Origin: Kalaharituber pfeilii
Lineage: Eukaryota; Ascomycota; Pezizomycetes; Pezizales; Pezizaceae
DNA length: 64,000 nt
Direction: 5' to 3'
NCBI GenBank assembly: GCA_015179045.1
Contig: WHUZ01000009.1
Location: 1,116,001 to 1,180,000 of the forward strand
Below are positions 18,007 to 48,485 of this stretch, in pieces (position 1 is the first letter of the stretch; each line of letters starts with the position of its first letter). The position numbers were made by a program, and so were the translations under genes. The notes below the pieces were generated by a model. It was not told the DNA's origin, ran no database searches, and saw only the letters and a list, made by a program, of their open reading frames with translations.

Positions 18007-18056
18007 CCCTGCCATGGCGCACAGCTGCAAGCGGGGTGACGTGAAATAAAAAAAAA
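18007..18056 (+). repeat. hairpin mini-retroposon, family A
   Basis: The core runs CCCTGCCATGGCGCACAGCT, GCAAGCGGGGTGACGTGA, then an A tail. It is flanked by the 10-bp duplication GTTTACATGT (17996-18005 and 18057-18066). CCCTGC pairs with GCGGGG. Confidence 0.88.
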
Positions 18057-18307
18057 GTTTACATGTCTAGACATATATGTCCCAATGCCATATCTTCATC
18101 GAATATCCTGAGCCCTCGTGTGGATTCTCAGGCCATGAACATAGCCGTCGCAGCGTCGCCTAAGACGCACAGGTTGGTTTGAGGGGGACCTTCGAATAAT
18201 GATTTTAAAAAAAAAAGAAAAAAAAAAAGAGGGGGACCTTAAAGAGGCAGGTAAGACACCGTTGGGCAAATCTGAAAAAGTTAGTGCACCACCAGGCCCT
18301 GAAGCAG

Positions 18308-18366
18308 GCCCTGCCATGGCGAAAAGCTGCATGCGGGGTCGCGTGACAAAAAAAAAAAATAAAAAA
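18308..18366 (+). repeat. hairpin mini-retroposon, family A
   Basis: Core CCCTGCCATGGCGAAAAGCT, GCATGCGGGGTCGCGTGA, then an A tail. A perfect 13-bp duplication GGCCCTGAAGCAG lies at 18295-18307 and 18367-18379. The loop differs from the other copies but the outer stem is intact. Confidence 0.9.
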
Positions 18367-19053
18367 GGCCCTGAAGCAGAACTGTGAGGCCTATAGTACT
18401 GCCTCGTGGAAGTTGTGAGCGCTCGGAAAGACGGTTAGACGGGATTGATCCTATACAGGATTTAATGCGTCCCTTACAAACTGAACCATGAGCTATATAT
18501 ACAGCAGGGCTAAATACGAGTAGTGAACACACACACAAGCACACACAAAAAGAGAAAAAAAAAAAAAAAAAAATTGAAACGCTGATGAAAGTAACTTCCA
18601 GCGATTGAAACCACCATTTTACGGAAATTAGGACATCGTTGTAAAGAGTCAAGGGTCACTGAGATACAGGACAGCGTCCGCTACCGTTGTAAATGAGCCC
18701 GAAAGATGGGAACCAATGGAACGGACGTGCGACTGATGTAAAGAGACAAAGATATGCCCAATTCACCAGATCGACTGGACCTTACGCACGAACTGATGCA
18801 GGGCGGATGCGAGTGCGGGTTCGAACAAGAAGAGAAAATGTTCTTGAATTGTTAGAGTTATCGTACAGAGAGTCTATGTATCCCATCCTCGTGTCCACAT
18901 CCCATGTGCCGACATACTTTTTCCACATTTCAGGCTTATACGTATGCGCTGAACATTTGGCCCACAGTGTCTGAGGACAATATGCGTACCGACGCAATTC
19001 TAAGCCCTTGGTAGATGTAAACTTTTTCGTATGCCTTCATGTATCAGTACTTG

Positions 19054-19119
19054 CCCTGCCATGGCGAACAGCTGCAAGCGGGGTAACGTGACGAAAAAAA
19101 AAAAAAAAAAAAAAAAAAA
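19054..19119 (+). repeat. hairpin mini-retroposon, family A
   Basis: Core CCCTGCCATGGCGAACAGCT, GCAAGCGGGGTAACGTGA, then about 27 A. It is flanked by the 7-bp duplication AGTACTT (19046-19052 and 19122-19128). Confidence 0.83.
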
Positions 19120-19752
19120 TTAGTACTTAGTTAATATAGTCTTATCCGACAGCTTAAATGTATAAGATCAACATCCCCCACCGTTTTGTCTATAGAGCAG
19201 AGTGATCTTGATTGTGAGGATCTTGAGCATAAGTAAAACAATCATTGAAAGAAGAGCTGGCGCATTCGGTACGGGCCTCGGCCAAAAGATCCAAGGGGCT
19301 TAATTCGTAACACCTCTTTTGGCATAGGAATGAGGGAAATCTCCTATCGGCGTATGCGGCCGAGCGCTCTGGAGCATTAACGACGTTAAAATCGAAGGGT
19401 TTACCGATGTTAGTGGCTACGCCCTTGCTTGGTGCAGTGGCCCCTGCTCTGTGAGTGAGATAATTCAGGAAAGCAGAACGTACTTACTTAAGTACCTGCC
19501 CAAAGAGGAAACTAGGCATGTACTCACCTACGCGTATCTATAAGTATTATAGAAGCGTTCCAGGTACTTCACTTGGCATAGAAGTGTGCTACCTCAAACT
19601 CCTCCTACTCCAATGGCCAGGGCCCTGGGCATGTCAGTGAATGTATCTATTACGTTTTTCAGGCTGCTACTAGTGGCCATTACATTATCCCACAACTGCT
19701 CGGACTATATTCGGACCTTCGTCTGGAGTAATGCCAACCACCAGAACGTGTT

Positions 19753-19795
19753 CCTGGCCATAGGCTGGTAGCCTGTATCCCAGGTTACGTGACCA

Positions 19796-19826
<31 letters not shown>
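19753..19826 (+). repeat. hairpin retroposon tail, divergent family D
   Basis: CCTGGCCATA, inner hairpin GGCTGGTAGCC, spacer TGTATC, then CCAGGTTACGTGACCAC and about 28 A. The primary sequence differs from families A and B, but outer stem (CCTGG/CCAGG), CATA, inner hairpin and the TTACGTGA tail are in the same order. No target duplication was found, so the insertion may extend upstream of 19753. Confidence 0.6.
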
Positions 19827-19831
<5 letters not shown>

Positions 19832-19888
19832 CGATAGAGACCTTTTACTTCATTTCACAGGCGGTAATATACTTTCGCGTATTTTTGC

Positions 19889-19890
<2 letters not shown>

Positions 19891-19934
<44 letters not shown>

Positions 19935-19972
19935 ATCATTACTCGTATGTTGCCCTATGGGCTTTGACGAGA
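19891..19972 (-). repeat. hairpin mini-retroposon, family B
   Basis: About 40 T on the plus strand, then the reverse of CTCGTCAAAGCCCATAGGGC and AACATACGAGTAATGATC. The duplication ATTTTTGCTC lies at 19881-19890 and 19973-19982. The outer stem here is CTCGT/ACGAG, a compensatory variant of the CTCGC/GCGAG seen in other copies. Confidence 0.87.
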
Positions 19973-20413
19973 ATTTTTGCTCGATTGAACGTGGCAGTAA
20001 AAATGACACATATGGCCTCTCATACACAGCAAAATTGTTATGTTCACGACACCCTTGTCATAGTATTTCCCTTCTCTATTCAGCCTCCATACTAGCATTA
20101 TTACTGTCATAAAAGTAGAAGACATGTACATAGAGTTCGCGTTGCCATCAATTCACAAAAGTGGCACGTTGATAGGATACATTATATTGAAAAGAAAATG
20201 TAAGACAAAGAAGAAGAAGCAAAACCGTACAACTTCCGAGCTTCAAGCACCATTTACCACTACAATCCATATACCACTGAACAAAGAATCAGGTCATGTA
20301 TATGAATACAGCAATGAGACAATTAGATATCAAAGCAGGAACCGAGGACACAAACTCCTGAACGAGGTAGATATGTCAGCTTCATGAATAGATTCAATTA
20401 GGCAACAATGGGA

Positions 20414-21674
20414 TTACTCACTCCTTGTCCTCCCTTCAGTGTTGGCACCGTTTCCTGGGTGTCTCATTGGGGCTTCAGTCATGACATGCTTGACAACGGT
20501 GCTCGTTGTTGCTTCTGCTACAGGTGCAGTGGTGCAAGGAGAAGTGGCCTCAGCAACAGGGGTAGTCTCTGTGGGGGCAGTTTCGTGTGCAGCAGCAGAC
20601 GTGGTTTGAACAGCAGGAGCAGTCTCGTGCATAGCTACGCTAGTGGTATTGTTGGCCTCAGCAACAGTTGTGGTTACAACGTGCTCAGCTGCTGTGCTTG
20701 TGGCTTCCTCAACAACGCTTGTAGTGACAGCCGCCTCTTCCTCTTCACCGTTGCCACCTTCAACAGTACCATTAGAGGCACAACCCAATCTTCCAACACC
20801 AACCTCAAGCAGGTTGCTCTCACCAAGAGTGTTCTGGGTGTAGCGAGAGTTGAACTTGACGACCCTCTTCATAGCATTATAAGTAGCAACGTTGAGGGCA
20901 AGTGATTGCTGCGTAACAAGGAAGGTAATGCCCTCGGCACAGGGTGGTGTAGTTAAAGAGCCAGTATACTGGAAGAGTGGGGTTGTCTGAATATGGTTGG
21001 TGAGTTCAGTGAAGTCAAGCGCACCAGTCTCGGTGACCGTGCCGGGAGTCTCAATCTGAGCAAGGTTCTCAGTTACTGCAGTGAGAAGCTCAGTAGTGCT
21101 GCCATCCTCGCTAAGCTGGAATGTCACAGCAATGACCGCAATAGCGCCAGATCCATCTGCAGGTGTTACAATTAGTGAGGACTCTTGGACTTCCAGTCAC
21201 AATCAAGGTGAGGGACGAACCAGCTGCCTCGTGGACCATGTGCATCTCCAAGGGAAAATACTCCTCGGCTACCCTATGCTCGGAGGGAGTATGGAAGTGG
21301 AACTGCTTGAGGGAGAATTGTGTCCCCGCGAAAGTTGTCGTGCCATTGACAATAACCTCCACCGCGGTTCCCAAATTTTCGAACTCAGCATTCTGTACGT
21401 TTGGGATCTCGACCACTGGGGCCTCTGCTGCTAGACCAATGCTGGCATCGATATTTATCGGTGATTGTGCCTTTCCAGAAGCGCATGCACTGTTCTCTGC
21501 TGCAAGGCCGACCCAGTTGAGGGGTCCTTGCAGACCTGTGTACCCAAAGTTGCTTACCTCAACCCTCCCCCCTGGTAGCTCCCGACGCTTTAACATTGAG
21601 GTCCCGTGCAAACAGCTTGCTGACACACGGGCGGCTAAAACCGAAGCGACGAGTATGATTTGCTTAGCGAACAT
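20414..21674 (-). CDS. secreted alpha-carbonic anhydrase with Thr-rich C-terminal tail
   Basis: Two exons on the minus strand: 21674-21221 and 21156-20414. The 64-nt intron (GTTCGT...CTGCAG, branch ACTAAT) interrupts a Gly/Asp codon, giving 398 aa. Residues 1-20 form a signal peptide. The alpha-CA fold spans about 40-270, with GKAQSPINI, zinc ligands His126 and His128 (QFHFHTPSEH) and His145 (LEMHMVH), and GSLTTPPC near the second half. KFNSRYTQN closes the fold. The last 120 or so residues are Thr/Ala/Glu-rich with repeats of HETAP and PVAEAT, probably an O-glycosylated linker; no GPI-type hydrophobic end is visible. It catalyses CO2 hydration outside the cell, commonly for pH and CO2 sensing. 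The protein is intact. It is paralogous to the partial gene at 1-376 but in the opposite orientation. Confidence 0.95.
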
Positions 21675-22022
21675 TTCTCTTGACTTCTTTTTGTCTTGAT
21701 CGATATACGTGATTCGTAGCAGATTCCTTTCTGCTTAACTTCTGTACTGGCTGAACGGGGATCTCAATTGAAGTCGTCGATGCAAGTTAGGAAAAATTGA
21801 AGCAGTCCCGACTGCAAACAGGAGAAAGAAGATAATGAATAAATGACTCAAGATTAAAAGACCAAAAGAGATAGACAGTTCCAAGCTGTCCGTAAGAAAC
21901 GAAAGCACACTCAATATGCTAGGCGGAAAAAGTTGCAAAGAAACCCAACGAGAGGCCTGAAAACAAAAAGAAATTTGAGGACTGCGATGATGAGGAGTCA
22001 AGATAGAGAATTAGGGTGGCTC

Positions 22023-22030
22023 TTATATAT
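22023..22030 (-). promoter_or_regulatory. TATA-like box upstream of the carbonic anhydrase
   Basis: The minus strand reads ATATATAAGAG about 350 bp upstream of the carbonic anhydrase ATG at 21674. The distance implies a 5' UTR near 300 nt, possibly with a leader intron. The assignment is by sequence only. Confidence 0.35.
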
Positions 22031-24296
22031 GTATGCGTGCATACCTATTTTGTAGTGAATATAGCAAGCCACCCAGGATTTGCGCCGCACCTAGTCAAGT
22101 CTCCTGCAGATAGCTGCCGGCGCGCGCCGGAGTACCCTGTCGCACAATTCTAGTAGCAGACGAGCCAAACTTCACCTAACCTGACGCTGCCATGGATCTA
22201 TCACATCTTAAAACATTACCTATGTTCCAAATTGGAGACCAGCTAGCTATCGGCCTCAATTGCGGAGTGCTCCCAAGATAAATTTAGACCAGCTACTTGA
22301 AAGTTAACAACACTGGAAAGTACTTCGAAGGCTACCGCAATGCCTCGGAAGCTGAATACGAGATACCAGCTGCCCCGATGCAGCGCATACGATGGGTAGA
22401 GATAGCAGTTGACTCTAGATGCAGTAAGTTACATCGAAAGCAGATTCGGAGAAGAGACGGGGAAAGATCGGGAGAAGCATTTCAGTCGTCAGTTGAACTG
22501 GGCATATTCAATTCATTTGAAGGCAGTACTATCTGAAGTTCCGGAAGGCTCATTTCGCCATGCATCATATCCCAAGATATTCCGAGATTAGTCCCAATAG
22601 TGAAATTACATTTTAGTAACACTGTATCGCAATGAGCGAACACAAACCAGCTGCAAACGCTCTCACGTTCTTATGCTGATCTTACTGTGGTACACTATAC
22701 ATAGAGATTTCCACCGCACAGGATTCAAAATAATAAGCCTTGACACTTTCGCTAGACCGGTTATAGATCTTGCCAACTTGCAAAATTCCGCAACTACTTC
22801 AACCCAGTCCACAGAGATGATCCTACAACATATGCTTCACAATGTGTTTGAGGACTATACTTTGCAGTCCCAATACCACGAGCTCAATGAGGCTCGTGGC
22901 GACCAACCAGCTGCAGCGTTCCTCCCCGGTGTATGAGTGGGGTACAACATGCGGAATCAGAGATTGCCCCTTTTGTCCTTGGCTATTCAGGGAAAAGTGG
23001 GATATGGCGTTGCCAATTGCACAGAATCCCAGAAATTGCCAGAAAACCGTGTCAAGAGGGTCTTGGACAAGAAGAGCTTGTAATTGAGAGATGTTATGGT
23101 TCTGGGACAATCATGTTGACAGGGATCCCGCGGGCCAGGGGCCGATACCCTAACTCAATGTCTGCGGTTACGCAAGCTCTCTCCCGACAATGGTGCGACA
23201 CACTCTGCAGTCCAAGGAAAATTCATTAAAAAAATAGAGCCTGACTTGGTCGCCTCACAAATCAATGTAACAACATACCTTGCGTATCTCAGGATTATGG
23301 AAGGATATTTGTGTCAATGTGTCGATGAGAAAAGCTGAGTAATTTTGTGGGGCCGTGAGGACTTGCCAGTATTTGGCCCCTTGAAACCAGGGGATGCGAT
23401 AGGACGTCTAGTTTACGAGACTAGGAATGCGAAAGTCGTGTGCTCAAAGATCTAGCAGATTAGTGCTTATATGTTTAGTGAAGCTCACGGGTCTTAGCGA
23501 AGGCCGACTCATCCGAAGTACTCTTCGCCACGAGCTCTTGCATGCATCGTTTCATCTGGTTACATGTACGCACATTGCTAAACACCTACCCAACAACTGG
23601 AACGAAATAGGCATGGAGCGAGGTATGATGCAACCGAGATCCTATCATATCTCGCTGGCCAGACCCTATCCTCTCTCACGCGTGTGTGCGAACTTGGGAT
23701 GCAATTTAGTTGTTCAAATTGCAGTTGCAACATTGCCTATACGAACGGTTGGTCACGAGACTAAGTGGCAACCGGACCCAAAACACCAATGCACTAAATC
23801 ACGATTGTTCCTTAGGATGTACTAATCAAGTCAATATCACTGTAATCAGGATGTGTTGATCTTTAAATTGGTAATTCCAATTCTACATGTACTTCACCTA
23901 CCGACCTGATAGAGACCGAAATAGAGTACGTAGGATTCAGTTTCTTGTCGCCATATGATAGCCCTTAGGGCGGCACGCATTACTGATATAAAAAAAAGAA
24001 AAAATTTTCAATTTCTTCACAGCGAGTGTCCCCTAGCCTGGGTGGCAAGGACGTTAACTCAATTTCGATCCCGTATTGAGTGAGTCTGGGGCGAAAATTT
24101 CCATGATGCTGGCGCCAGCTTACATATTGGAATAGCATATTACCTAAATTCAGCACTATCAAGAATGAAAATATGTGCGTTTATGGCGTCTGGGTAGTCC
24201 GTATTAGTAAGTTTCCAAGTATGGCAAGAGCTTCCCAACTGCCGAGAAACTAGGGTGTCGACCCCTGTATGATAAGCTCTATGTAGAGTGCCAAAA
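22031..24296. other. non-coding stretch
   Basis: Several short frames overlap at 22670-23230 and 23430-23825 without any motif or splice model I can support. A family B copy lies at 23948-24004. The rest holds nothing recognisable. Confidence 0.45.
23948..24004 (+). repeat. hairpin mini-retroposon, family B (weak duplication)
   Basis: TCGCCATATGATAGCCC, loop TTA, GGGCGGCACGC, ATTACTGATAT, then an A-rich tail. TTTCTTG before it and TTTCTTC at 24012-24018 may be a diverged duplication. Confidence 0.65.
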
Positions 24297-24706
24297 GACC
24301 TTTCGCATGAGCTCTAGAGCTTCCGCACAAACTGCACAGCAACGCCAAAAAAGGAGGTACCGGTCATTATGAGCTTTACTTTACACCTGCTGATTGAGCG
24401 CCAGCAACAGCGCTGAGATTACCCCCCTTATACTTGAGTATTTGCTTCGTTTTCCTACTCCAAAGCCTATTAGTTAATTATTTAGGCTTTTACGATTCTC
24501 AGGATACCTTCAGCCTTACCATAGCTATTGTAGTTGTTGAGATATTTGCAGCGAAAGTTGTAGAGCTTTAATCAGGGCGTGAAGCTTTTTGCTGGAGCTT
24601 CATGGAGCTTCATGAAGCTCCAGAGCTTTAGTTGCGCCACACCTCGTTGACTAGCAGGGGGTGCAGCAGGGGTCGGGAAGCTCTAGAGCTTGTTGCGAAA
24701 GGTGTC
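24297..24706. repeat. 410-bp inverted-repeat element (MITE-like)
   Basis: The left end GACCTTTCGCATGAGCTC, TAGAGCTTCC is matched by the inverse at 24678-24706 with small differences. Inside, TGGAGCTTCATG (24593-24604) and CATGAAGCTCCA (24611-24622) form a tight hairpin, and several AGCTCTAGAGCTT motifs recur. There is no coding potential. The element ends four bases before the next one. Confidence 0.6.
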
Positions 24707-24710
24707 TAAT

Positions 24711-25340
24711 GGGTGCCTTCCGCTAAGGATTTATGTGAAATTCTAACCAAATTTTACCAGGGTACATTTCCACCGCAAGCAGGGGGTAGTTTCTCTAAGC
24801 ACTTGGACGTGAGTAAAATAATAAATCTAGAAAACTTTTTGTTATGCAGATATTTACACCTTAAAGAAGCCAGTGAACAAGCTGTCAATCCACTACAAAA
24901 GACAGCATGAGCTCTCAAGCTCCAAGAGAGAGGACTACGTCTTAAGAAACAGCAGTCAAGTACCAATGTATCTAAAAAGAGAAAGAGTAGGAGACTGAAC
25001 TCTCAGTAAAAATTTTCCGCTGGAGGATAAGAATGCATTACTGGATATTACATATGCAAGCAAGACTAGGTGCAAATGATGCAAATGTGAATTTAAATAT
25101 CCTCTATATGGTATAGTTATTATAAACTATGCTACTTCAGCAGTAGTGTACTCTAACTAACTGCTTTTGAAATTTATTGTTTATTGTTTATTCAAGTGAG
25201 TATTTTGAAAGGGGGGGGGTACCCCTCTTTCAAAAAATTGTTTCGAACGCTCTACCAAACAATAAAACAGGGATACGGACCCCGGTTTTATTTCAAAGCA
25301 GGGGTTTGAATTTCACATAAATCCTTAGCGGAAGGCACCC
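24711..25340. repeat. 630-bp element with 33-bp perfect terminal inverted repeats
   Basis: The left TIR (24711-24743) begins GGGTGCCTTCCGCTAAGG, and the right TIR (25308-25340) is its exact inverse over 33 bases. AAT lies immediately outside both ends and may be a 3-bp target duplication. The interior is AT-rich, with a 9-G run near 25210 and no transposase, so it is non-autonomous. Superfamily is undetermined. Confidence 0.8.
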
Positions 25341-26024
25341 AATGAATACATAAAATATGACCCTTTGTTCTCACTATAGCAAGGTTTTCAGTATAGAAAA
25401 TTGTGGCAAATTAGTCATATAGTTCTTTGCGACTAATTCAGACTTACTAGGTGAGGCCGTCAGTTGCCGTCCTGATTAGGCAACGTTCCCTAGGAATGGG
25501 GGCCCTATGCGAAGTCAAATAAATGTTCCGGAGGCGTGACTGGCAGAGTGATGGTAATACTATATGTGCTGGTGGAGGGGGGGTGCGGTAGAGAGGAGGG
25601 TGTGGTAGAGAGCGGTGCGCGGTAAAGGAGCGGGGTTTAAGCTTTTTTTTCTTTTTTAACTTCTTCGAACTGACCTGCGCCTTGGTCGAAGTGGAAAGCT
25701 GTGGTCTCCAGTGATGGAGGTAACCAAAAGCGCCATGGAGAGGTGTAGAATTGAGGGCCCCGGTTCAATTCTGAGCTGGGGAAGAGGGTTGTCCAGCATC
25801 TCTCCGAGATGGACTGTAATGCTCCGGTTCCAGCAATGATCTCTTGGGAGTTAGAATTTACCGTAAAATCTCTTAGCAAGTCAGAAATTCTAATGATGAA
25901 CAATTGGGAGCTGGAACCGGGGTAACTTGTTTTTATTTTTCACATATTTGTTTTTTTTCCTAGCATTTTGACATTGCTTCTTCAAGTTGCTCTCAAAGTC
26001 TCAACTAATACATAATATATCTAT
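25341..26024. other. flank of the Helitron gene
   Basis: No gene. At 25825-25920 there is an imperfect hairpin (CCGGTTCCAGC against GCTGGAACCGG, with an inner TTAGAATTT/AAATTCTAA pairing). The 3' end of the Helitron (expected CTRR after a hairpin on the minus strand) should lie in or near this stretch, but I could not fix it. Confidence 0.4.
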
Positions 26025-32879: not shown

Positions 32880-35057
32880 ATGTTTGATATTGTAACTAGA
32901 GCTCAAGCAGTGATTTTGAAGGCAGTAGGAGAGTGTCTTGTTGAGATTCAGCGGCAAACTGGAATTACCTCTCGACAGGTTACCAATCTTTATAATAAAG
33001 CACTTGAACGAGGCTGGTATCCTGGAACCCCTCTCTCTTCATTTCATGTTATTGATACCCCACGCTCTGGAAGGCGTAAAAAAATTACACCTGAGGTGGA
33101 ACAAAAATTGATTGAGGCTATCAAGTATGATCGTTATGGTCGGGAAAAGTCAGTTCGTTCACTAGCTGTTCAATTTAATATATCTCGCTATAGCGCATGG
33201 AAGGTACTACGAAAACATGGATTCAGAAAAACCAAACCTACACGAAAGCCTGGCTTGACAAAAGAAATGAGAGAAGCACGTTATCAGTTTGCTTTACGAT
33301 ATCAGCATTGGACTCTTGAGGATTGGAAACGAGTGGTTTGGACAGATGAAACTTCAGTGGTATTAGGGCATAGAAGAGGAAGTTATAGGGTAAGTTGCTA
33401 CTATATTTATATCTAAGCAAAATAACTAACAAAATTCTTAAAGGTATGGAGACAGCCACATGAAGTCTGCATTAAATCCTGTGTTCGAGAGCGGTGGAAA
33501 GGATACTCTGAGTTCATGTTCTGGGGATGCTTCACATGTGACTTTAAAGGACCTTGTCATATCTGGAAACCAGAAACCAAAAAGGAAAAGCAACGGGCAG
33601 AAAAAGAAGTGAATCTGATTAATACTGCTATTGAGGAAGAGTGCAAGACACAGTGGGAACTCAATACTATGATGAGAAGAATGGGACTTCGGAATACAGG
33701 TAAGTGTGTGGAGATTTCTTCTACTCTTACAGCAGCCGTTTTGGCAGGCATTTTGCAGTCGATTTTTGCACCCGAGTTGGCAGCTGTTTTTTCACTCGAA
33801 TTTTGCACCCGAGTTGGCAGCTTTTTTTTTTGCACACGGGTTGGCAGCTGTTTGTGCACCCGGGTTGGCAGCTGTTTTTTCATTGGATTTTGCAGCTGTT
33901 TTGCACCCGGGCTTGCACCCGGGTTGGCAGCTTTTTTTTGCACGCGGGTTGGCAGCTGTTTTTTTCATTCGATTTTTGCAGCTGTTTTGCACCCGGGCTT
34001 GCACCCGGGTAGGCAGCTTTTTTGCACGCGGGTTGGCAGCTGTTTTTTCAGTCGAATTTTGCACCCGGTAATAGCTTCTACTAACTCTGCAGCTGCTTCT
34101 AGGTGGGAGAAAGCCAACCTGGAAATTTAATGTGAAGAACGGAGCTTTTTCTAGAGAGGAAAGCAAAGGTGGAGTTGATTGGTATAGATACTTAAACGAA
34201 ATTCTTCTTACCAAACTTCTTCCATTTGCTGAAGCTGCCAAATGCTTTATTCCAAATATTACTGTCATGGAAGATAAGGCTCCTTCTCATGCTTCCAAAC
34301 GTCAACGAGTTTACTTCGATGTCTCAGAAATTGAACGTTTCATTTGGCCTGGCAACTCTCCAGACTTGAATATGATTGAACCATGTTGGGCTTATATGAA
34401 TCAAGCAACAACTAAGAAGGGTCCTTTAACTTGCCGTCTTACTGCTGAAAAAGTGTGGCTTAAGGTATATTAGATACAATATAATGTTCAATACTATTAG
34501 TAGCTAATTTTGATATCTATACTAGGCTTGGAAGGATCTTGAACAATGGAGAATTCAATCATGGATTGAGCGAATTCCTCGTCATATTCAAGAAGTGATT
34601 AAACTTGAAGTAGGTAATGAATATAAGGAAGGGAGGACAGGAAAACGTCAATCTGATAAATTACGGAAGTCAGATATCAGAAAAAAAATCAAAAAAATTC
34701 GTCAAGTTTGCCAGCAAGCATATACTACCTTTAAGCAAATGACGAAAGATCTTCCAGAATCCTATATAGATTATTTTACTTCTCTTTTTACTGGTTCTCT
34801 CTGGGTAGATGTTGAAGAAGTTGAAGAAGTTGATGCTGATCAATGGAATGAAGATGAGTTAGAGCAGGAGCAGGAACAAGAGTCTGGTGAAGAGCAAAGG
34901 GAAGGACGGAAAGGAAAACGCAGATCCAGAAAAGGGAAAAAAAAAAAAAGGTACTAAAGAGGGAAGAGTAACTAAACGTGGAAGACCTCCAGGACCACCT
35001 AAATTCAATGTTCGTTTTCTTCCTATTAATGAGATTGTATATAAACACTCAAAATAA
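32880..35057 (+). pseudogene. Tc1/mariner DD34E transposase, frameshifted near the C-terminus
   Basis: Exons 32880-33389, 33444-33699, 34103-34464 and 34526 onward, all GT-AG. An N-terminal helix-turn-helix (TGITSRQVTNLYNKALERG, then SVRSLAVQFNISRYSAWKVL) is followed by the DDE domain: VWTDETS (first Asp), MEDKAPSHAS (second Asp) and SPDLNMIEPCW (Glu), with 34 residues between the last two. I chose Met 32880 (MFDIVTRAQ) over the upstream frame at 32613 because that part is translated minisatellite. The second intron (33700-34102, 403 nt) is unusually long because of tandem repeats. A run of 13 A at 34937-34949 shifts the frame and stops translation at 34957; one base fewer would continue to TAA 35055-35057 through a basic GRPPGPPK, AT-hook-like tail. 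It may still be partly functional, since the break lies after the catalytic domain. Confidence 0.88.
33760..34072 (+). repeat. tandem repeats inside the transposase intron
   Basis: Roughly ten degenerate units built from GTTGGCAGCTGTTTTT and TTTTGCACCCGGG, with some longer double units, all within intron 33700-34102. The splice sites at both ends are preserved, so the expansion does not touch the reading frame. Confidence 0.85.
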
Positions 35058-38309: not shown

Positions 38310-38316
<7 letters not shown>

Positions 38317-38350
<34 letters not shown>

Positions 38351-38385
38351 ATAACCCCGCTTGTAGCACGTGGCCATGGCAGGGT
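38317..38385 (-). repeat. hairpin mini-retroposon, family A, in the 5' LTR
   Basis: Poly-T, then the reverse of CCCTGCCATGGCCACGTGCT and ACAAGCGGGGTTATGTGAT. The duplication AACCTCTTGTATT lies at 38304-38316 and 38386-38398. The uninterrupted target can be read in the 3' LTR near 46540-46556, which proves the insertion. Confidence 0.93.
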
Positions 38386-38677
38386 AACCTCTTGTATTTA
38401 GTTTCTACTAAGTAGAGTGGTTACCTGCTGTGCCGATCCGCTGAACTGCCGTACCGTTGTGAACCGTTGAACCGCCTTACCGCTGAACCGTCGCCTGCCG
38501 CCTCCTGCCTGCCTGCGCTTCGTAGATCGCCGTCATCCACGGGCACTAGACCACGACTGCCGTTACACTAGGTTGCGTCACAACCCTCTACCGAGCGCAC
38601 CTATCGCCATGTCACGCCTCATTACACCAGACCTGTGGGCACTGGCAAGTGCAGCCTTCCTTACAACACCAAAACCA

Positions 38678-38750
38678 CTATAAATCCATAGCACATCGCC
38701 ATAGCCCATAGGGCGGCAAGCGATTAATGATATTAAAAAAAACAAAAAAA
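38678..38750 (+). repeat. hairpin retroposon, family B, slightly longer 5' end
   Basis: CTATAAATCCATAGCACATC, GCCATAGCCCATAGGGCGGC, AAGCGATTAATGATATT, then an A-rich tail. A perfect 13-bp duplication AACACCAAAACCA lies at 38665-38677 and 38751-38763. It retains about 20 bp upstream of the hairpin that other short copies lack. Confidence 0.9.
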
Positions 38751-39576
38751 AACACCAAAACCAGAAGGAACCGCAGACCGCATGGTCGCTGCTTTGGAAG
38801 GAATCAGAAACCTCCCTGTCTATACCCCACCACAAGATAATGCGGAAATTGCACGCCTTAATGCCCGAATTGCAGAATTGCAAGCAGCAATACAGACCTC
38901 CAAGCTACAGCCAATGCCGCCATACAGACCACTGACCTCCTCCGTACCCAGCTCGAAGAATCTCGTACAATACAATCTGCCCTGGCTCGGAATACTGCCC
39001 CTGCTACTCCTACCACCCAGAAGACCCCTGACCCTGACAAGTTTGATGGATCTCGAGAGCAATCAAGACTATTCCTCCTTCAACTGCGTCTAAAAGCCAG
39101 CACCTATACTGATGAACAAGCCCGTCTACGATATGCTGTCTCATTATTGAAGGGAATGGCATTGGAACAAGTGGCCCCCTTTGTCCTAGATGACCGTGTT
39201 AATCTCGCTGACCTTGCCGCTCTAATTACCATCCTTGAGACCGCCTTTGGAGACCCTGATCGCTGCAGGACTGCAGAACGAAAGATTCTTAATCTCCGAC
39301 AAGCAAATAAAGAATTCTCCTCCTACTTTGCAGGATTCCAACGGTATGCTGCTGACCTGGACTGGAATGAGGCAGCAAAGCTATCACAACTCCGTCAAGG
39401 CCTCTCACAAGAAATGCTTAATGACCTCATTACTGTTGAAGAACCTGAGGAGTTTACTGCCTTCGTTGCTCTCCTTCAGCGCCTAGATAGTAAGCGACGA
39501 GCTACTCAACTCACCCGTCGACCCCAAATCAGCACTTCTCGTCCTACCTCTATAGTTCAAGCCAAAGCCCCCCAGG

Positions 39577-40405
39577 TGTAACAATCCAACCCGGACCCCT
39601 CGCCCAAGACCCTCCAGCTCCGGTCCTATACTGGCAACCAACATACTACTCGCCAGTACTCGTACACGTGCAGCTGACCCTGACACCCTTGCAATTCGCC
39701 GCACTCCTTCTAGCACTCCGATATATATCCCTGCACCTGTAAGCTCGCTTGAGCAACGTGGCCGCCAGCATCCCGGTCACCGCTTAACAGCCCGAACCCG
39801 AAGAACCTGCCAGAATCTGCTAGAAGAACCCGGATCCCCAGAACCTGCCGGAAAGCCGCAGAACCTGCCGGAAAGCCGTAGAACCTGCCGGAAAGCCGCA
39901 GAATCCGCCGGAAAGCCGTAGAACCTGCCGGAAGCCGTACAACCTGTCGGAAAGTCGTAGAACCTGCTGGAAGACCCCGGAATCCACCAGCGACAGGTAT
40001 CGCCGAGCTTATTCCCGGATATTCTTGACGCTTCTACCTGCTTCCAGTCATTCCTTGGCCATCCATGTACTTCCTGTCGTTTCCTTTGTTTTCCATGTAC
40101 TTCCAGTCGCTTCTCGGTTTTCCATGTACTTCGTTTGTTTGCTTGTTTGCTTGTTTGCCTGGATTTGCCACCGAGGGTTTTCTATAAAGAGGCCCTCCTC
40201 CCTCCTCCCTCTTGCTTCTCCACGCAACAACTTGGATCCTACCCAAGTTGTGTATTTAGCTTTTAATACATCTACCTCTCGATATCATATAGCCCCGACC
40301 GCCTCTGCCTCTGCCTCTGCCTCCACTGTGAAATCGCCTCGGCGCCCGCCGCCCACCCCGTACCCAGATCTTGTACCTTGACCTGACCCGGACCGATTCA
40401 TCACA
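39577..40405 (+). repeat. 829-bp solo LTR in gag
   Basis: Starts TGTAACAATCC, ends CGATTCATCACA, flanked by the 5-bp duplication CCAGG (39572-39576 and 40406-40410). It contains a ~21-bp tandem repeat (AGAACCTGCCGGAAAGCCG, about eight units, 39800-39975), TCCATGTACTTCC repeats (40062-40132) and a TATA-like CTATAAAGAGG at 40181. It belongs to a different LTR family from the host element. Confidence 0.88.
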
Positions 40406-40541
40406 CCAGGCTGCTACCAATGCTTCTCCCAACAACACTGCTCCTCCCACTGGCGTCACTACAGCTACTGGAACCCACGCTGGGCCAATGGACCTCTCTG
40501 CAGGTCGTCGAAGGTTAACTGTGGAAGAAAGAGCCCGACGG

Positions 40542-40932
40542 TGTGGTGGTAACCACGGTACCGATGGAAAGAATAAGGCCATACGCGGGCCGGAGCGGTA
40601 CTCAGCGGTAGGGACACATGATGACACATGTATGGGATGAGAAAGAAAATTATGATTAAGAAGCGAGATATGTATAGGCTTAGTTGGAAGGCGAAGGCGG
40701 TCTATAAATTGTATGTAGATAGGACTGTGGAAGCAGGCAAGCAAGCAGCAACATACAGACAGACATACACGGAGATATACAGACATGGACAGATATGGAC
40801 ACGTACAGACAAGACAATTGAAGACTCTTTTCTTGACATTTGATTATTGAGGCCGCCCTTGAGGCTTCGTTCCGCCAGCTCTAGACACCGGTACCCGTGC
40901 GAAACAGTGGATGCTGTTGAGCCGTCATCACA
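40542..40932 (+). repeat. 391-bp solo LTR in gag
   Basis: Starts TGTGGTGGTAACC, ends GCCGTCATCACA. ACGG precedes it and follows it (4-5 bp duplication). Removing it restores the gag frame through ERARR-MAEGRCLYC. Contains a ACATACAGACAG-rich stretch near 40750-40800. Confidence 0.82.
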
Positions 40933-42113
40933 ACGGATGGCTGAGGGTCGGTGTCTATACTGTGGAGGTGTAGGCCATATGGCTAATGCTTGCCCTGTCG
41001 CCCGCCGCCCTCTTCGGACAGCTGAGGCCGTTATTTCCTCCACCGATGAGGTACCTGAGTCACTGCCAGCTTCTACTACCAAACCGTCTTTAACTAGATG
41101 TCCCTTTTCAGCTCGATAGCTCTGTCAAGGGACGTTCTATTTCTCCTATGTCTTGTTTCCGGTTGTCTACTTTTTCTGTTGATAAATCACCTGTTGTGGA
41201 CGAAGAATTGATGGATGGGAATCATTTGATAGTTACATGCTCATTAATTGACTCTTATTACCCAATCTTCCAAACCCACGCACTGATTGACTGCGGAGCA
41301 ACTGGATATGCATTCATTGATGAGGAATTTGCACACTATCACAACTTACCACTATACCCTCTGAAGACCCCCCGCACAATTGAAGTTATCGACCTATACA
41401 ATCTGGTGATGTCAAGTACTTGACCAAGGTAAAGATGACCATTGATAAGTACTCTGAGGAAATTCCTATGTTTGTCACTCATCTTGGACACTACCCTGTT
41501 GTGCTTGAAATACCTTGGCTTAGAAGACATGATGTTACAATCCGCTTTGCTACAAGTACTGTTATCTTTGACTCTGATTTTTGTTTATACCATTGCACTC
41601 ACATGGCTGCTACCACAAAAGGCATTACTATCGACCCACCAGAGCGTCCTTCCGATATCGTCAGTACTCTAGAGGATGCCACTAGTCCTCCGAATGTCAC
41701 TAGTACTCCAGAAACTACTAGTAGGAGTTCTCTGAACTCTGAACCTGTGATGATTTCTGCTATCTCCTTCCGCCGGCTAACTCAGAAGCGTACCAACTTT
41801 GACTAATGCTTTAAGTTGTCCCTCTATGAGATCAACCAAGCATTAGCACTACCAACGGAGGAAAAAGATGAACTAACCAAGATTAAGGAGCTAGTTCCTG
41901 AGAAGTATCACGAGTTCCTACTACTAATCACTGAAGCTATTGCTAAGGTCCTACCTCCACATCGCCCTTATGATCATAAGATCCCATTAAAGGATAGGTT
42001 TCAACCTCCTTTTGGACCTTTCTACTCTCTCTCTAAGTCCGAACTGGAAGAACTCCGCCGTTGGCTAGAAGACAATCTCTCAAAAGGCTTTATCCATGCA
42101 TCGTCTTCTCCTG

Positions 42114-42425
42114 TAGTGAGCGACACGAGCCGAGCCAGCTCGAGCTCAAACGAGCCAAGATCATGCTAGTGTTTTTCTTGCCAGCTCGCTAAAATGCTTA
42201 GCCAGTGCAAGGTTTCATAAACTGTAAATACCTAATATAGTAATAATTAGAGACTTGGAGCTCATTCTGACCTACCAACAACTTCGAAATGCTCAATTTA
42301 GCTGATAGTAGTGAGAAAGATGAAAATTTAGCTTAGTTTAGTTTAGTTTGTCAATATTATATATATAATCAATCTAGGCTCGAGCTCATGCCAGGCCAGC
42401 TCGAGCTAGCTCGTGCCGCTCACTA
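42114..42425. repeat. 312-bp inverted-repeat element in pol (hAT-like MITE)
   Basis: TAGTGAGCGACACGAGCC at the left, inverse of TAGTGAGCGGCACGAGC at the right, with repeated CAGCTCGAGCT motifs next to both ends. TCTCCTG occurs before it and again at 42433-42439, so the target duplication appears imprecise. The interior is AT-rich. hAT membership is inferred from the end sequence only. Confidence 0.7.
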
Positions 42426-42894
42426 TTCAGAATCTCCTGCTGGTGCCCCTATCCTGTTTGTCAAAAAGAAAGATAGTACACTTCGCCTCTGTGTTGATTA
42501 TCGTGGACTCAATGAAGGAACAATTAAGAATAGATATCTTCTTCCTCTCATCCGTGAGATACTAATGCAGCTATCAAGGGCCAGATACTATACTATATTA
42601 GATATTCGTGGGGCATATAATCTGATTCAGATGGCTGGGGGTGAGGAGTGGAAAACAGCCTTCCGGACAAGATATGGCCTATATGAATCTCTAGTCATGC
42701 TCTTTGGTCTTACAAATGCCCCTGCCGACTTTCAAAAGTTCATTAATGAGGTTTTACACCTATTTCTTGATACATTCTGCACCACCTACCTTGATGATAT
42801 TTTAATTTACAGTGATACTTTTAGGGAGTATAAGATTCATGTTCGACGTGTTCTTGAAGCTCTCAAAGAAGCTGGTCTTCATCTGAAACCTGAG

Positions 42895-42957
42895 CCCTGC
42901 CATGGCGAACAGCTACAAGCGGGGTCACGTGAAATAAAAAAAAAAAAAAAAAAAAAA
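42895..42957 (+). repeat. hairpin mini-retroposon, family A, in reverse transcriptase
   Basis: CCCTGCCATGGCGAACAGCT, ACAAGCGGGGTCACGTGA, then an A tail. The 13-bp duplication TCTGAAACCTGAG lies at 42882-42894 and 42958-42970. Excising it joins HLKPE to KCEFHKTSVKYLG, the expected RT sequence. Confidence 0.95.
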
Positions 42958-43405
42958 TCTGAAACCTGAGAAATGCGAGTTTCATAAAACCTCTGTTAAG
43001 TATCTGGGTATGGTCATTTCTCATGAAGGAATTCGAATGGATCCAGCTAAGGTCAATTGTATTCTAGAATGGGAAGCTCCAAGGAATCTTCATGATGTTC
43101 GCGCCTTTCTAGGATTTGCCAATTTCTACCGCCGTTTTATCAAAGACTACCCTCGCATTGTATCTCCTATGGTCAAACTCACGCAGAAGGATACTCCTTT
43201 TATATGGGATACTATATGCAATGATGCATTCGAATACCTAAAAAAGGCCTTTACCTCAGCACCAATACTTAGCCACTTTGACTCTGAGAGACTAATAATC
43301 ATTGAAACAGATGCTTTTGATTATGTTTCTGCTGGTGTCATGAGCCAACGTGATGATGAAGGAATCTTACATCCTATAGCATTCTTTTCTACGAAGCACA
43401 CCCCG

Positions 43406-43923
43406 TGTCACAGCCACCTACGCACGCGTCAGTATCGTCCTTTTCCGCAGCCGACAAGTCAAACCGAGCCGACGTGCCAAGCCGGAAGTGAGACCTTACT
43501 AATAGCCGACTCGGAAAGGCCTGACAAGCCGTCCCGGTCCGGTTGATTAGCCCTCTGACAGCTCATTGATATGCCTTCCAATATTAGTACTACTATTGCC
43601 GCTCTTGCATTTCGGATTCTCTTTCTCATATTGTTATAGTCCTGTATTCCTTTTCTATGTCAATTCCCAAGCATATAAGGGCCCCAGGTCCGCCTCTGTA
43701 GATAGCTCTTCTTCTTCTCCTTGTCCGTTGTCTTGTTGATCAATAGACCCGTCTGGTTTCTCGTACTCCTCCGCCGCTGCCATTGCTATAGTCTGTTACC
43801 TCTAGCCGCTGAGCCGCCGCCGCCGCCGTAGTCCTCGACCCATAGCCGCCGAACCGCCGCCGATACCCAAGCTGACCGTACCCCTTGGCAAGACCTCCGC
43901 CCAGGCCCCCCACCGACGTTACA
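43406..43923 (+). repeat. 518-bp solo LTR in RNase H
   Basis: Starts TGTCACAGCC, ends GACGTTACA, with CCCCG before and CACCG after (5-bp duplication with one mismatch). TATA-like CATATAAGG near 43673. Excision joins FFSTKHTP to [12 protein letters not shown], as expected for Gypsy RNase H. Confidence 0.88.
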
Positions 43924-44817
43924 CACCGGCAGAATGCAACTATGAGATATATGATAAGGAATTAATGGCAATTGTTTACTGCTTTGAGGAATGGTGTCCT
44001 GAACTAGAGTCCTCGCTACATCCTATTCAAGTTCTATCTGACCATCACAACCTTGAGTACTTTATGTCAACTAAGCTACTCAACTGCCGACAAGCTCGCT
44101 GGAGCGAATTTCTCTCTCGATTCAACTTCAAAATTACATACCGACCTGGCAAACTTGGAGGGAAACCGGATGCATTAATAAGGAGGTCAGGAGATCTCCC
44201 TCAGAAGGGGGATGAAAGATGAGCTCACCAGAATTAAATTGTCCTAAAACCTCACAATATTGCATCAAGTGTACAGGTTACCCTCAATGCATTAAAGATT
44301 ACGGAAGATACAATACTTGAAGAACTTATGAAGGAAGCCTATATACAAGACAAGATTCCCAATCAAGTTTTAGATGCACTACGTAAGGGTAAAAAGCAAT
44401 CTAAATTACTAACACTTACAGAATACAAAGATAAGAATAGCCAACTTTGATATCGTGGGCGAATTTACATACCAAATTACAACCCATTAAAGCTTCGACT
44501 TATGCAGAATCACTATGAGACTCCAGCTGCAGGCCACCTAGAACGGTCGAAGACACTTGAACTCTTATCAAGAACATACTACTGGCCCAGAATGTATCGA
44601 GATGTTGACTGCTTTGTCAGAAACTGCCATATCTGCCAAAGATCTCGTACTAGTAGGCATGCTCCATTCGGAATACTGAAGCCTCTTCCAGTCCCTGAGA
44701 AGCCCTGGCAAGATATATCTCTTGATTGTGTTGTGGGTCTACCCTGGTCTGAGGAGAGTAATGCAATACTTGTTGTGGTGGACCGATTAACGAAAATGCG
44801 GCACTTGATACCCTGTC

Positions 44818-45323
44818 TTTTTTTTTTTTTTTTTTTATATCAATACTCGCAGGCCGCCCGACGGGCTATGGCGAGGTTTTTATTTAAATAAAAACGAACG
44901 GAAGAAGAAGTCAAAACCCCCACGCTATCTACTCCTAACTACATGTGGTACCCGCGGACTCTTCACTAATGCGGGTGGCGCCCGGTACAATCCCCTACTC
45001 CCGTCCCCTCTCCGGCTCATACCGGACCGACTTCAGCCATCGCCCACTCAGTCTCACCTTGTCAACCTCCACGTCCTTGCCCAAATAGACCACCACTGAA
45101 CTCGTCGTCTTTGTTAGAGATCTACAGTAATGTCGGAGTGTCGGAGGTGTCGGATATCAGAGAGGTCCGTGATAAAGGGTGGTAAGGGCCCGAGAGCAAC
45201 CTCATGCTCTATGTATATAGGTGTATTACTTTGGCTACTCTCTCTACGAAGGAATAACAATCATCTCTTTCTACCCAAAAGCTCAACAGTCTTGCCCTCC
45301 CCCTCAAGTATCGTCTTCCTCCT
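44818..45323 (-). mobile_element. 506-bp LINE-derived retroposon ending in the family B hairpin
   Basis: Flanked by a perfect 14-bp duplication CTTGATACCCTGTC (44804-44817 and 45324-45337). On the minus strand: about 220 bp of unknown sequence, then an open piece SVVVYLGKDVEVDKVRLSGR, WLKSVRYEPERGRE ending at a stop (44995-44997), then about 100 bp of 3' sequence, the hairpin CTCGCCATAGCCCGTCGGGC, GGCCTGCGAGTATTGATAT, then poly-A. The coding piece is the end of a Tad-like LINE ORF1. The copy shows which kind of element the family B tail belongs to. Confidence 0.88.
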
Positions 45324-46348
45324 CTTGATACCCTGTCGAGATACTGTTACTACACAAGAACTTGCTAGACTATACGTGACGCATGTAGCAAAAAACCATG
45401 GTTTACCCAAGACAATCATCAGCGACTGTGGTACACAATTCACCTCACTCTTTTGGAATGCACTGACATATCGATGGGGAGTCAAACTTAAGCTTTCTAC
45501 TGCATACCACCCTGAAACTGATGGCCAAACAGAACGAGTCAATGCAGTTATGGAACAGTACCTTCGAGCCTTTGTGAACTACCTTCAGGATGATTGGGCA
45601 GAGTGGCTACCTCTCGCTGAGTTTGCAGCCAATAATAATGCATCGGAAACTATAGGCATCTCTCCATTCTTTGCCAATTATGCATTTGATCCATATTGGA
45701 CTAAAGAACTTCAACCAGTCAAAGGACCACATCGAGATAAGGATGTACAAACTGCGTCTAGTCATGCCGAAGCTCTTAAAGCAACTATTGACCACTTACG
45801 AGTTGAAATGCGTAGGGCCCAACACAGATACTAGGAAAATGCAGATGCACACCGCCTTCCTGCTTCAGACTTCTAGTCAGGGAACATAGTGTGGCTAAAT
45901 ACGAAGAATATTACTACTCGACGTCCCTCTCGAAAATTAGACCACCGCCGCCTTGGATCCTTCAAAATTCTGCAGAAAATCTCTCCATATGCCTACCGAA
46001 TCGAGCTTCCTACTACTATGCAAGTCCACAATGTCTTTCATGTTTCCTTACTAGATCTTGCAGCTAGTGATCCATACTCTGGGCAACACATTCCTGCATA
46101 TCCACCAATTATTGTTGATGAAGAGGAATATTACCATATTGAAGAGATTCTGAACTCAAGGATATATTGCAGACAACTCCAGTATCTTGTTAAGTGGCTA
46201 GGTTACGAGCAGCCTGACTGGCAACATGCAAAGGGAATGAGCCATCTCGATGCTGTTCACAAGTTCCATCAGCAATACCCAGACAAACCTGGACCATAGC
46301 AGCAGTAACAACTGAGCCTCGCAGGAGCTCGGCCTAGGAGGGGAATAG

Positions 46349-46732
46349 TGTAACGGGATATTGTATAGCGAGCCGGATAAATAGCTTCACGCTAAAAGGT
46401 GACCTCTGACAAACATTTCGGGATGTTGGTACAATATATACGGGTAAAAAGGATGCGACCTGAGTGCGTATTGCAGTCTCAAAAGTGTATATAAGTGGTG
46501 TTCATGGCTGTGTGTTCTCCTTTCCTTTTTCTCTTTACGCAACCTCTTGTATTTAGTTTCTACTAAGTAGAGTGGTTACCTGCTGTGCCGATACGCTGAA
46601 CTGCCGTACCGTTGTGAACCGTTGAACCGCCTTACCGCCGTAAACTGCTGAACCGTCACCTGCCGCCTCCTGCCTGCCTGCGCTCCGTAGATCGCCGTCA
46701 TCCACGGGCACTAGACCACGACTGCCGTTACA
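46349..46732 (+). repeat. 3' LTR of the Gypsy element
   Basis: 384 bp, TGTAACGGGATATTG... to ...GACTGCCGTTACA. The terminal TGTAAC/GTTACA inversion is intact, and it is preceded by the polypurine tract. No insertion is present, so it is the reference for the interrupted 5' LTR. GTATATAAGTGG at 46485 is a TATA-like box. Confidence 0.92.
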
Positions 46733-46826
46733 CGTCCTCAGGCTTCGAGAAGTGAATTCTTGCGTAATTTGTTTCTCATGCTGTTTACAATTGCACACTG
46801 TGATTTTGGCTGTTCACGGGGCTCGG

Positions 46827-46830
<4 letters not shown>

Positions 46831-46863
<33 letters not shown>

Positions 46864-46897
46864 ACTCGCATGCCGCCTAATAGGCTATGGCGAGGGA
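46831..46897 (-). repeat. hairpin mini-retroposon, family B
   Basis: Poly-T, then the reverse of CCTCGCCATAGCCTATTAGG and CGGCATGCGAGTAATG. The duplication CTCGGAACT lies at 46822-46830 and 46898-46906. Both stems are perfect (CTCGC/GCGAG, GCCTA/TAGGC). Confidence 0.85.
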
Positions 46898-47092
46898 CTC
46901 GGAACTGCAAAATACAGTAACCCTTGTAGTAGGCTTGTCTTTGCTGGTTAAGATCCGACCTCAGGGGGTTGCCCAATAAGTTTAAGTACTCACATCTGTC
47001 TACCTCGTTACCGACCCTGATGGGGGCCTGCGGTAACTTGCATGAGTACCTGTTAGTAAGGGAGTGTAATAAGGAGTGATAAAGAGTCACTT

Positions 47093-47157
47093 TTCTCGCC
47101 ACAGCCTATAGGGCGGCATGCGACTAATGACATTTTTTTTTTAAAAAAAAAAAAAAG
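47093..47157 (+). repeat. hairpin mini-retroposon, family B
   Basis: TTCTCGCCACAGCCTATAGG, GCGGCATGCGACTAATGACA, then T and A runs. The 9-bp duplication GAGTCACTT lies at 47084-47092 and 47158-47166. Confidence 0.85.
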
Positions 47158-47851
47158 GAGTCACTTGCAATTGCTCCCGGAACCTCTCCGGACAGGCAGA
47201 TTCTGCCTGCCGCTCCCGGACCGCATCAGACGATACACTTTTATGCCATGACACTGCCACACAGGTGGGGCAAGGAGTCTGTGCGTTTATGCTGGCATTG
47301 AAAAGGTTTTCTCCCGGACGGACCTCTAGGAGCAAAGCCACCGAATGGACCTCTAAATGAGGCGAGGCAGTGGCTGAGAGATATCTATAGATAGAACATC
47401 ATGATATCATAGCAAGTTAGACAATAGATGGAAGGCACGCAGGATTCACTATAGGAAGGGTCAGCAAGAGCTGTCCTCGCAATGGTCAAGCATCAAGCGT
47501 TGTCCTAAGTTACACCCTCATATTTACTACATCATCGTAGAAACCGTAACGCTACGGTACTACTGTGCCCAGGCTAGCTATTCCTACTGCCTGTGTAACT
47601 AAATTCTTAGATGGCATACGTGCATTCATGCCCAGTTGGTAAAATTCACTGTTAACCATGTTCTCGCTGGAAACAATAGTGCCGGAAGGATGAAAAGCGC
47701 AACCTTTAGGAGGGTCTCATCACGAAGCGTGAATTTAAAGAGATTGAGCTAGGAAATAAGCAATTGGATCCTGAGCTCCACGTGGCCAACAAGATGAGGT
47801 TAAAGAGATCCACCGGCCGCAACATGCCGTCATGGAGTAACTGCATGTATT

Positions 47852-47918
47852 TTTTATTTTTTATTTTTTTTTTTTTTTTTAATATCATTACTCGCGTGCC
47901 ACCCTATGGGCTATGGCA
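47852..47918 (-). repeat. hairpin mini-retroposon, family B
   Basis: T-rich tract, then the reverse of TGCCATAGCCCATAGGGTGG and CACGCGAGTAATGATATT. The perfect 13-bp duplication AACTGCATGTATT lies at 47839-47851 and 47919-47931. Confidence 0.9.
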
Positions 47919-48432
47919 AACTGCATGTATTCGAGTACTGTACATACTAGACGCCACACATCACAAAGCCTTATTAAATGTATAGGGGGAATAACCTCAT
48001 TCGATTGAAAAAAAAAAAAAAAAAAAAAAAAAAAAGATGTGGCCCGTGAATGTGAAACGAAACATGCATGTACACATGCATGTACTTTGCGTTTCATGGA
48101 TCTGACGTTTAAAGAGATAATAGCGTTCGACTGCGTACATCAGTATTGTTTTCCTCAGAATAACTTTCGTAATATGTGTAGATTGGAGCTTTAAGCATGA
48201 TACTTATGCACTTAAAACTAGTACTGTGAACGAAAGATGCTTGTTTGCATTGTTCAGGATACAGAGGTCAATCAAAACTCGGTTTTTTTGCGCTTTGCCT
48301 GCACTATCATCAGTTGCGCGCGCACTTCCCGGACAGAGTCAGTAGGCCAATAAAATGCCAAAATACCTAATACATGCGTAAATGTCCCTTCCTTGTATGC
48401 ATCCCTGGACCCTGCGGCTAGCTGCCTACATG

Positions 48433-48485
48433 TTTTTTTTGTTTTTTTTTTTATTTCACGTAACCCCGCTTGCAGCTGTTAGGGC
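48433..48485 (-). repeat. hairpin mini-retroposon, family A, internal deletion
   Basis: Poly-T, then the reverse of GCCCTAACAGCTGCAAGCGG, GGTTACGTGAAAT. The CATGGCG block is missing. The perfect 13-bp duplication AGCTGCCTACATG lies at 48420-48432 and 48486-48498. Confidence 0.9.

Follow-up and report, generated by a model that had tools for sequence, protein, structure and literature searches.

The 64,000-nucleotide window analysed here, positions 1116001-1180000 of contig WHUZ01000009.1 of the desert truffle Kalaharituber pfeilii (genome of 78 Mb, 360 contigs), contains a series of very short A-tailed inserts flanked by target-site duplications (TSDs). We are confident that these units are insertions of the 3'-terminal hairpin of the genome's own long interspersed nuclear elements (LINEs), belonging to lineages A1, A2, A4 and B. 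The A copies begin on the terminal base pair of the stem or a few bases from it, and in A1 some copies start at another fixed point, the base of the neighbouring hairpin upstream. Rather than being one short interspersed nuclear element (SINE), the units make up a hairpin-limited class to which several LINE lineages contribute. The best explanation overall, which we hold to be probable by a modest measure, is that LINE RNA stubs ending at the hairpin base are inserted by the LINE machinery.

Tracts of at least 8 A on both strands of the window (n = 38) were surveyed for flanking duplications. At fifteen of them the inserts were no longer than 90 nt and the duplications scored 9 or higher, and a control in which the 3' flanks were exchanged among the tracts gave a mean of 0.15 and a maximum of 1, which rules out chance as the origin of the inserts with duplications. 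Two of the fifteen (33830-33921 and 33940-33946) are tandem satellite and not insertions, leaving 13. Together with two lower-scoring inserts (19053 and 23947) this gives 15 units. Thirteen of them, 11 with a score of at least 9, lie within 18006-48485, the range of a previous sequence-only reading in which at least 13 ultra-short insertions with target duplications were claimed. The inserts are 36-78 nt long and the duplications 7-14 bp, several with one mismatch. The same reading regarded an insertion at 38317-38385 as proven by an empty site, and the sister long terminal repeat (LTR) does have this site, at 46533-46565, for the unit placed here at 38318-38385. Its claim of an insertion into reverse transcriptase sequence at 42895 is also borne out, since both flanks, each read alone, carry LKPE of a Ty3-type polymerase frame. 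The units are as follows.

10804-10852, minus strand: B-type hairpin unit, starting 5 nt inside the hairpin; 12-bp perfect TSD.
10977-11041, minus strand: B-type unit, starting about 7 nt before the stem; 14-bp TSD with 1 mismatch.
18006-18056, plus strand: A-type unit, starting at the terminal base pair (G); 10-bp perfect TSD.
18193-18228, plus strand: B-type tail only (14 nt and A tract), starting in the last bases of the 3' strand of the stem; 12-bp perfect TSD.
18308-18365, plus strand: A-type unit, starting at the terminal base pair (G); 14-bp perfect TSD (13 if the first A is assigned to the tail).
19053-19121, plus strand: A-type unit, starting at the terminal base pair (G); TSD of 7 bp only, under the counting score.
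19895-19972, minus strand: B-type unit, starting at most 1 nt from the hairpin base; 14-bp TSD with 1 mismatch.
23947-24006, plus strand: B-type unit, starting at the hairpin base; 11-bp TSD with 1 mismatch, under the counting score.
38318-38385, minus strand: A4-type unit in an LTR, starting at the terminal base pair (A); 14-bp perfect TSD; empty site in the sister LTR at 46533-46565.
38679-38750, plus strand: B-type unit including about 16 nt 5' of the hairpin; 14-bp TSD with 1 mismatch.
42895-42956, plus strand: A1-type unit in a Ty3-type pol frame, starting at the terminal base pair; 14-bp perfect TSD; LKPE on both sides.
46831-46893, minus strand: B-type unit, starting at most 3 nt from the hairpin base; 9-bp perfect TSD, or 13 bp with 1 mismatch.
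47093-47154, plus strand: B-type unit, starting at most 2 nt from the hairpin base; 12-bp TSD with 1 mismatch.
47852-47918, minus strand: B-type unit without the first 3 nt of the hairpin; 13-bp perfect TSD.
48434-48485, minus strand: A-type unit, starting at the terminal base pair, with 9-10 nt deleted inside the hairpin; 14-bp perfect TSD.

Read by eye, all six A-type units start at the stem base (that at 48434 with its internal deletion), as do, to within 3 nt, five of the nine B-type units; the other four B-type starts lie 5 nt (10804) or about 26 nt (18193) inside the hairpin, or about 7 nt (10977) or 16 nt (38679) before its base. The earlier statement that most copies start near the 5' base of the hairpin consequently holds for A in the window (6/6), while B and some window copies are less precise.

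Family A has the sequence (G or A)CCCTGC-CAT-GGC...GCT-RCAA-GCGGGG-T, followed by about ten bases and the A tail, and family B the sequence CTCGC-CATA-GCCC...GGGC-GGCAN-GCGAG-TAATGATATT, followed by the A tail. In most copies the predicted fold consists of two stems, outer and inner, with an internal loop that contains CAT between them. Nineteen hairpins of both families, picked by hand, all present in the fetched sequence and with the structure derived from folds, were compared with shuffled versions: 91% of the cells were paired as against 81% (0 of 500 shuffles as high), and 20 cells were two-sided as against 6.9 (0/500) and at most 10 in slid versions, but two of the five measures were level with the shuffles, namely pairs with two-sided change (5 against 3.3; 53/500) and pair types (145/500). 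This is support, though not proof, for a predicted 3'-terminal stem-loop that is conserved and shows compensatory changes. Pairing of the internal-loop CAT with a downstream RTG, which would give a pseudoknot, was considered as a candidate; these bases hardly vary. With strict patterns, 641 A tails and 404 B tails were found in the genome, and reversed control patterns had no match genome-wide. Two B units (L043 and L063) have part of the hairpin apparently duplicated or replaced, with an extra TAGTCTCATACCA-type insert.

These hairpins are the 3'-terminal hairpins of several LINE lineages in the same genome, and the units share with the LINEs the 3' end, the A tail and the TSD. Longer copies, which extend into LINE 3' regions, exist separately for the A1, A2 and A4 hairpins. 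At locus L130, endonuclease, reverse transcriptase (RT) and RNase H domains are encoded and a B hairpin stands at the end; L129 has an RNase H domain, RT-like frames upstream (by eye) and an A-like hairpin at the end; and L133, L135 and L136 end with an A1 hairpin. The LINE domains found were Exo_endo_phos_2, RVT_1 and RNase_H, with zf-RVT under its cut-off. The LINE-tailed loci L021, L033, L052, L054 and L058 have a last long frame resembling, by eye, the end of an ORF1-like protein; no RT was seen by eye within the fetched 1.5 kb, and these loci may be non-autonomous partners. Because the units match the 3' termini of LINEs from several lineages in this genome, they do not form a new, independent type of SINE that has its own head, and the alternative of a new minimal SINE in the sequence-only reading is replaced here by derivation from LINEs.

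The starts of the A copies were mapped in loci chosen by patterns that need an intact 3' strand of the stem, so that shorter copies are under-counted. Within 120 nt, 63 of 107 A hairpins have a TSD; in 51 of the 63 the start lies between -1 and +5 relative to the stem (in 49 between -1 and +2) and in 12 at or within hairpin 2, a second hairpin upstream, with no start elsewhere within 120 nt, although 51 to 12 is no genomic ratio since 17 loci were fetched for being extended. LINE-like sequence lies upstream in 38 of the 44 A hairpins without a TSD. When a sample was searched to 400 nt, 46 of 73 A copies had a TSD (swapped-flank rate 1.1%), of which 39 begin at the base (23-29 nt ahead of GCGGGGT), one at 61 nt and four at scattered positions (178, 218, 354 and 355 nt). 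The remaining two are the window copy with the internal deletion and L030, where the match is probably spurious.

Genome-wide counts of exact hairpins, in which copies with a mutated upstream region are classed as unextended, gave 375 for A1, 246 for A2 and 206 for A4, of which 41, 116 and 124, respectively, are extended into LINE sequence. The 334 unextended A1 copies mean that 89% of the exact A1 hairpins are short and, for A1, that the units are not smoothly truncated LINE copies, in agreement with the sequence-only reading. Twenty-four unextended exact A1 loci were read: a TSD was found at the base in 22 (one at +5, L026), none was found by the script for L053 and L077, and no LINE sequence was seen by eye upstream in any of the 24. 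The next base of the LINE, a G at -2, is present in 84 of the 375 A1 copies, including the 41 extended ones; since this leaves only 43 of the 334 unextended copies (13%, below 25%), homology to the LINE ends after the first base. All 22 exact short A1 copies have G as that first base and all 6 exact short A4 copies have A, matching their long copies; of two A2 shorts, one has A and the other G. Altogether, 16 different A hairpins have a common start. The scattered truncation points of ordinary 5'-truncated LINEs were not found in A1, which has fixed starts at two hairpin bases. The distribution of 5' ends, suggested earlier as a check, shows in the loci sampled a sharp peak at the hairpin base in A, with a loose distribution in B and many long copies in A2 and A4.

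Hairpin 2 folds as AAGCCUG-CCUC-CGGGCUU. When 21 of the 41 extended A1 copies were read, 12 started at its base (nine by script; L142, L149 and L151 by eye, L151 also by script), 7 were longer LINE copies, 1 started inside hairpin 2 and 1, L141, was a chimera. L141 has an 80-nt foreign head (593-672) between a 13-bp TSD and the hairpin-2 base, in which a B-box-like GAGTTCGAACC was noted by eye. The head was absent, as an exact pattern, from the other 159 fetched loci, and L141 had no Rfam match up to E 5 and no tRNA by ARAGORN. It could be a SINE of the conventional kind or a chimera produced by a single template jump.

At the 5' junctions of 51 short A copies, TSD and element overlap in 11, join cleanly in 25, and are separated by one extra base in 13 and by more in 2. 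The overlap (11/51, against 25% expected by chance; P 0.63) shows no excess of microhomology, so the above-chance microhomology by which an ordinary 5'-truncated LINE may be recognized was not found. Twelve of the 13 single extra bases are T or C, corresponding to A or G on the cDNA (P 0.003), in a test that is small (13 bases) and concerns a pattern noticed before testing. In 71 copies of both families with a score of at least 10, the two bases before the start of the upstream duplication copy are mostly T or C, its first base is mostly A, and most of the duplications measure 10-14 bp, a length that varies with how the A's at the tail are assigned. Such bases and lengths are expected for insertion by a LINE-type endonuclease. 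Among the first 100 A1 copies listed, AAAT tails were counted by hand in 34 of the 88 short ones and in 4 of the 12 extended ones (Fisher P 1.0), and a distinct short lineage marked by this tail was rejected, since extended copies have AAAT too.

The scheme that we prefer for these data would be as follows. Insertion would be target-primed, and the LINE-encoded protein may need only the hairpin and the A tail, by analogy with recognition in stringent-type LINEs. The usual template would be a short RNA with its 5' end already set at the hairpin base, instead of full-length LINE RNA, and this end could arise through cleavage at the base, or where the hairpin, folded and with protein bound to it, brings a 5'-to-3' nuclease to a halt. 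The RT would then copy the stub to its end, sometimes adding one untemplated base, and integration would be completed with a normal target duplication. Judging from the genomic copies, there is a shade better than an even chance that the template RNA really ends at the hairpin base. A usual end at this point is suggested because the starts lie on the 5' side, which is reached after the RT has opened the hairpin, while an enzyme blocked by structure should stop 3' of it; a template end at the base is favoured by the geometry and sharpness of the starts, by junctions with no excess of microhomology and by the added pyrimidines. The flush end and the purine as first base would match a cut at the base better than a halted nuclease.

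Several observations speak against this explanation. The short template RNA is putative, being deduced from DNA copies, and a 5'-to-3' nuclease usually stops a few unpaired bases short of a stem, whereas the A copies start flush. Family B is clearly much less precise than A, and intermediate in character, with a loose cluster and scattered longer copies: in the 400-nt sample, 20 of 52 B copies have a duplication, 12 starting at 18-25 nt, near the base, and the rest at 5 nt (one), 31 nt (one) and 70-329 nt (six); in the 120-nt sample, 12 of 38 have a TSD, 10 of them spread over -1 to +5 and the other two at 11 and 50; and in the window B starts reach up to 26 nt inside and 16 nt outside the hairpin. 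The effect is not uniform across the A lineages either, with long copies making up at least 47% of A2 and at least 60% of A4, and six A hairpins have neither a TSD that was found nor LINE-like sequence upstream. The selection of loci and the size of the pyrimidine test, given above, are to be counted on the same side.

The sequence-only reading had suggested that the RT regularly stops at the hairpin base. Such a stop after copying the hairpin of a long LINE RNA, either because the cDNA snaps into its own hairpin after RNase H action or because the enzyme stays bound to the RNA hairpin, is possible but doubtful. The ends do coincide with structure, and L130 does encode RNase H, but geometry, precision and junctions are better matched by a template RNA ending there. 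A structure-blocked polymerase should pause at the 3' base of the next structure, yet when the A1 parent is folded locally, its upstream structure ends at least 9 nt before the starts of the short copies. In the B parent L065 the 45 nt upstream are mostly unpaired, but L052, the other of the two B parents folded, has a weak stem there, and the argument is qualified by the long-range pairing in most parents in 212-nt folds. The lack of excess microhomology and the pyrimidine additions also match run-off from a template better. A different possibility, speculative and rather unlikely in our estimate, is that the hairpin (about 42 nt) is a promoterless minimal retroposon that sets its own RNA 5' end, being released at the terminal base pair from a LINE, gene or intron transcript by a nuclease, an RNase P-like cut or self-cleavage, with the stub and its encoded A tail reinserted by the LINE enzyme. 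Were this so, the unit would spread from host transcripts without a promoter, which would account for the 89% of short A1 copies. L141, in which a complete A1 unit is present, gave no Rfam match up to E 5 to a hepatitis delta virus (HDV)-like or other known self-cleaving ribozyme.

We regard it as quite unlikely that the short units are one or more true SINE lineages with their own transcription, unrelated to the processing of LINE RNA. The short, nearly uniform state of A1 (334/375) and the head of L141 with its B-box-like motif would fit such lineages, and the units resemble SINEs in sharing a 3' end with LINEs and in having an A tail and a TSD. However, the start is common to 16 different A hairpins, the first base and the tails follow the LINE lineages, and the L141 head was not seen again among the fetched loci. 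A SINE head (tRNA, 5S or 7SL RNA with an RNA polymerase III (Pol III) promoter) was not found, the B-box-like motif occurring only in L141: Rfam gave no match at gathering score in the window, and none in L141 and four other loci, and ARAGORN found no tRNA at the units in the window, bearing out the earlier remark that no tRNA or 5S head is visible. A known structured RNA or ribozyme as the identity of the units was rejected likewise, as Rfam had no matches in the tested sequences. Ordinary 5'-truncated LINE copies, short by accident, seem highly improbable: the 3' ends, A tails and TSDs are as in LINE copies, and scattered ends do occur in the long A copies (178, 218, 354 and 355 nt) and in several B copies (70-329 nt), but in A the starts are gathered in two peaks, one of them only one to a few nucleotides wide, with no spread.

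Some further features of the window were noted. ARAGORN places a tRNA-Ser at 25705-25783, away from the units, which is doubtful as Rfam at gathering score shows no tRNA in the window. A third hairpin type, CCTGG...CCCAGG, stands ahead of an A tract at 19797, where no duplication was found. The tandem satellite extends over 33732-34063; it is built of TTGCACCCGGGTTGGCAGCTGTTTT-like units about 24 bp in length and has a periodicity of 84 bp. An element of about 310 bp resembling a miniature inverted-repeat transposable element (MITE), with 17-bp terminal inverted repeats (94%), lies at 42114-42425 in the Ty3-type pol region.

Stringent-type LINEs (UnaL2, ZfL2 and SART1) and their SINE partners likewise have a conserved stem-loop in the 3' untranslated region (UTR) before the tail. 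The short SINE partners of such LINEs have a head of their own. Unlike these, the short copies of the truffle consist of the hairpin alone and start at its base, and their recognition by the enzyme is putative. In the excerpts of PMC5135761 and PMC3747384 the conserved 3'-UTR stem-loop is common to long and short elements. The fungal SINEs Mg-SINE of Magnaporthe and AfuSINE2 of Aspergillus fumigatus are likewise short, TSD-flanked and from ascomycetes. Excerpts of PMC5063351, where Mg-SINE is mentioned, describe for AfuSINE2 tRNA-related heads with Pol III boxes, and one element with a Tad1-like 3' end; no tRNA-related head or Pol III boxes were found in the short units of the truffle. Copies of R1, R2 and other LINEs truncated at the 5' end are likewise target-primed insertions of the 3' part. 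According to excerpts of PMC2718515, truncation is caused by RT failure, RNA degradation or early second-strand synthesis, and R2 truncations mostly have 1-5 nt of microhomology, which is linked to truncation, while untemplated bases are linked to cases without annealing, including run-off at the template end. The truffle copies differ in that there is no excess of microhomology and the A ends lie at fixed structural points. The truncation hotspots of SVA elements, as presented in excerpts of PMC12593883, concern the SINE-R region and cryptic polyadenylation. Among the matches listed from the open-licence literature, no hairpin-limited LINE class was apparent in the titles and abstract openings.

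The hundreds of natural copies in this one genome suggest that a 40-base hairpin with an A tail can suffice for LINE-driven insertion. The position and chemistry of the 5' junction provide a way to tell an enzyme stop from a shortened template, two explanations of LINE truncation that have long stood side by side. The stubs are also a possible stepping stone to SINEs, as in L141 the tail is joined at the hairpin-2 base to a foreign head, which is what would be expected if the enzyme jumps from a stub to another RNA.

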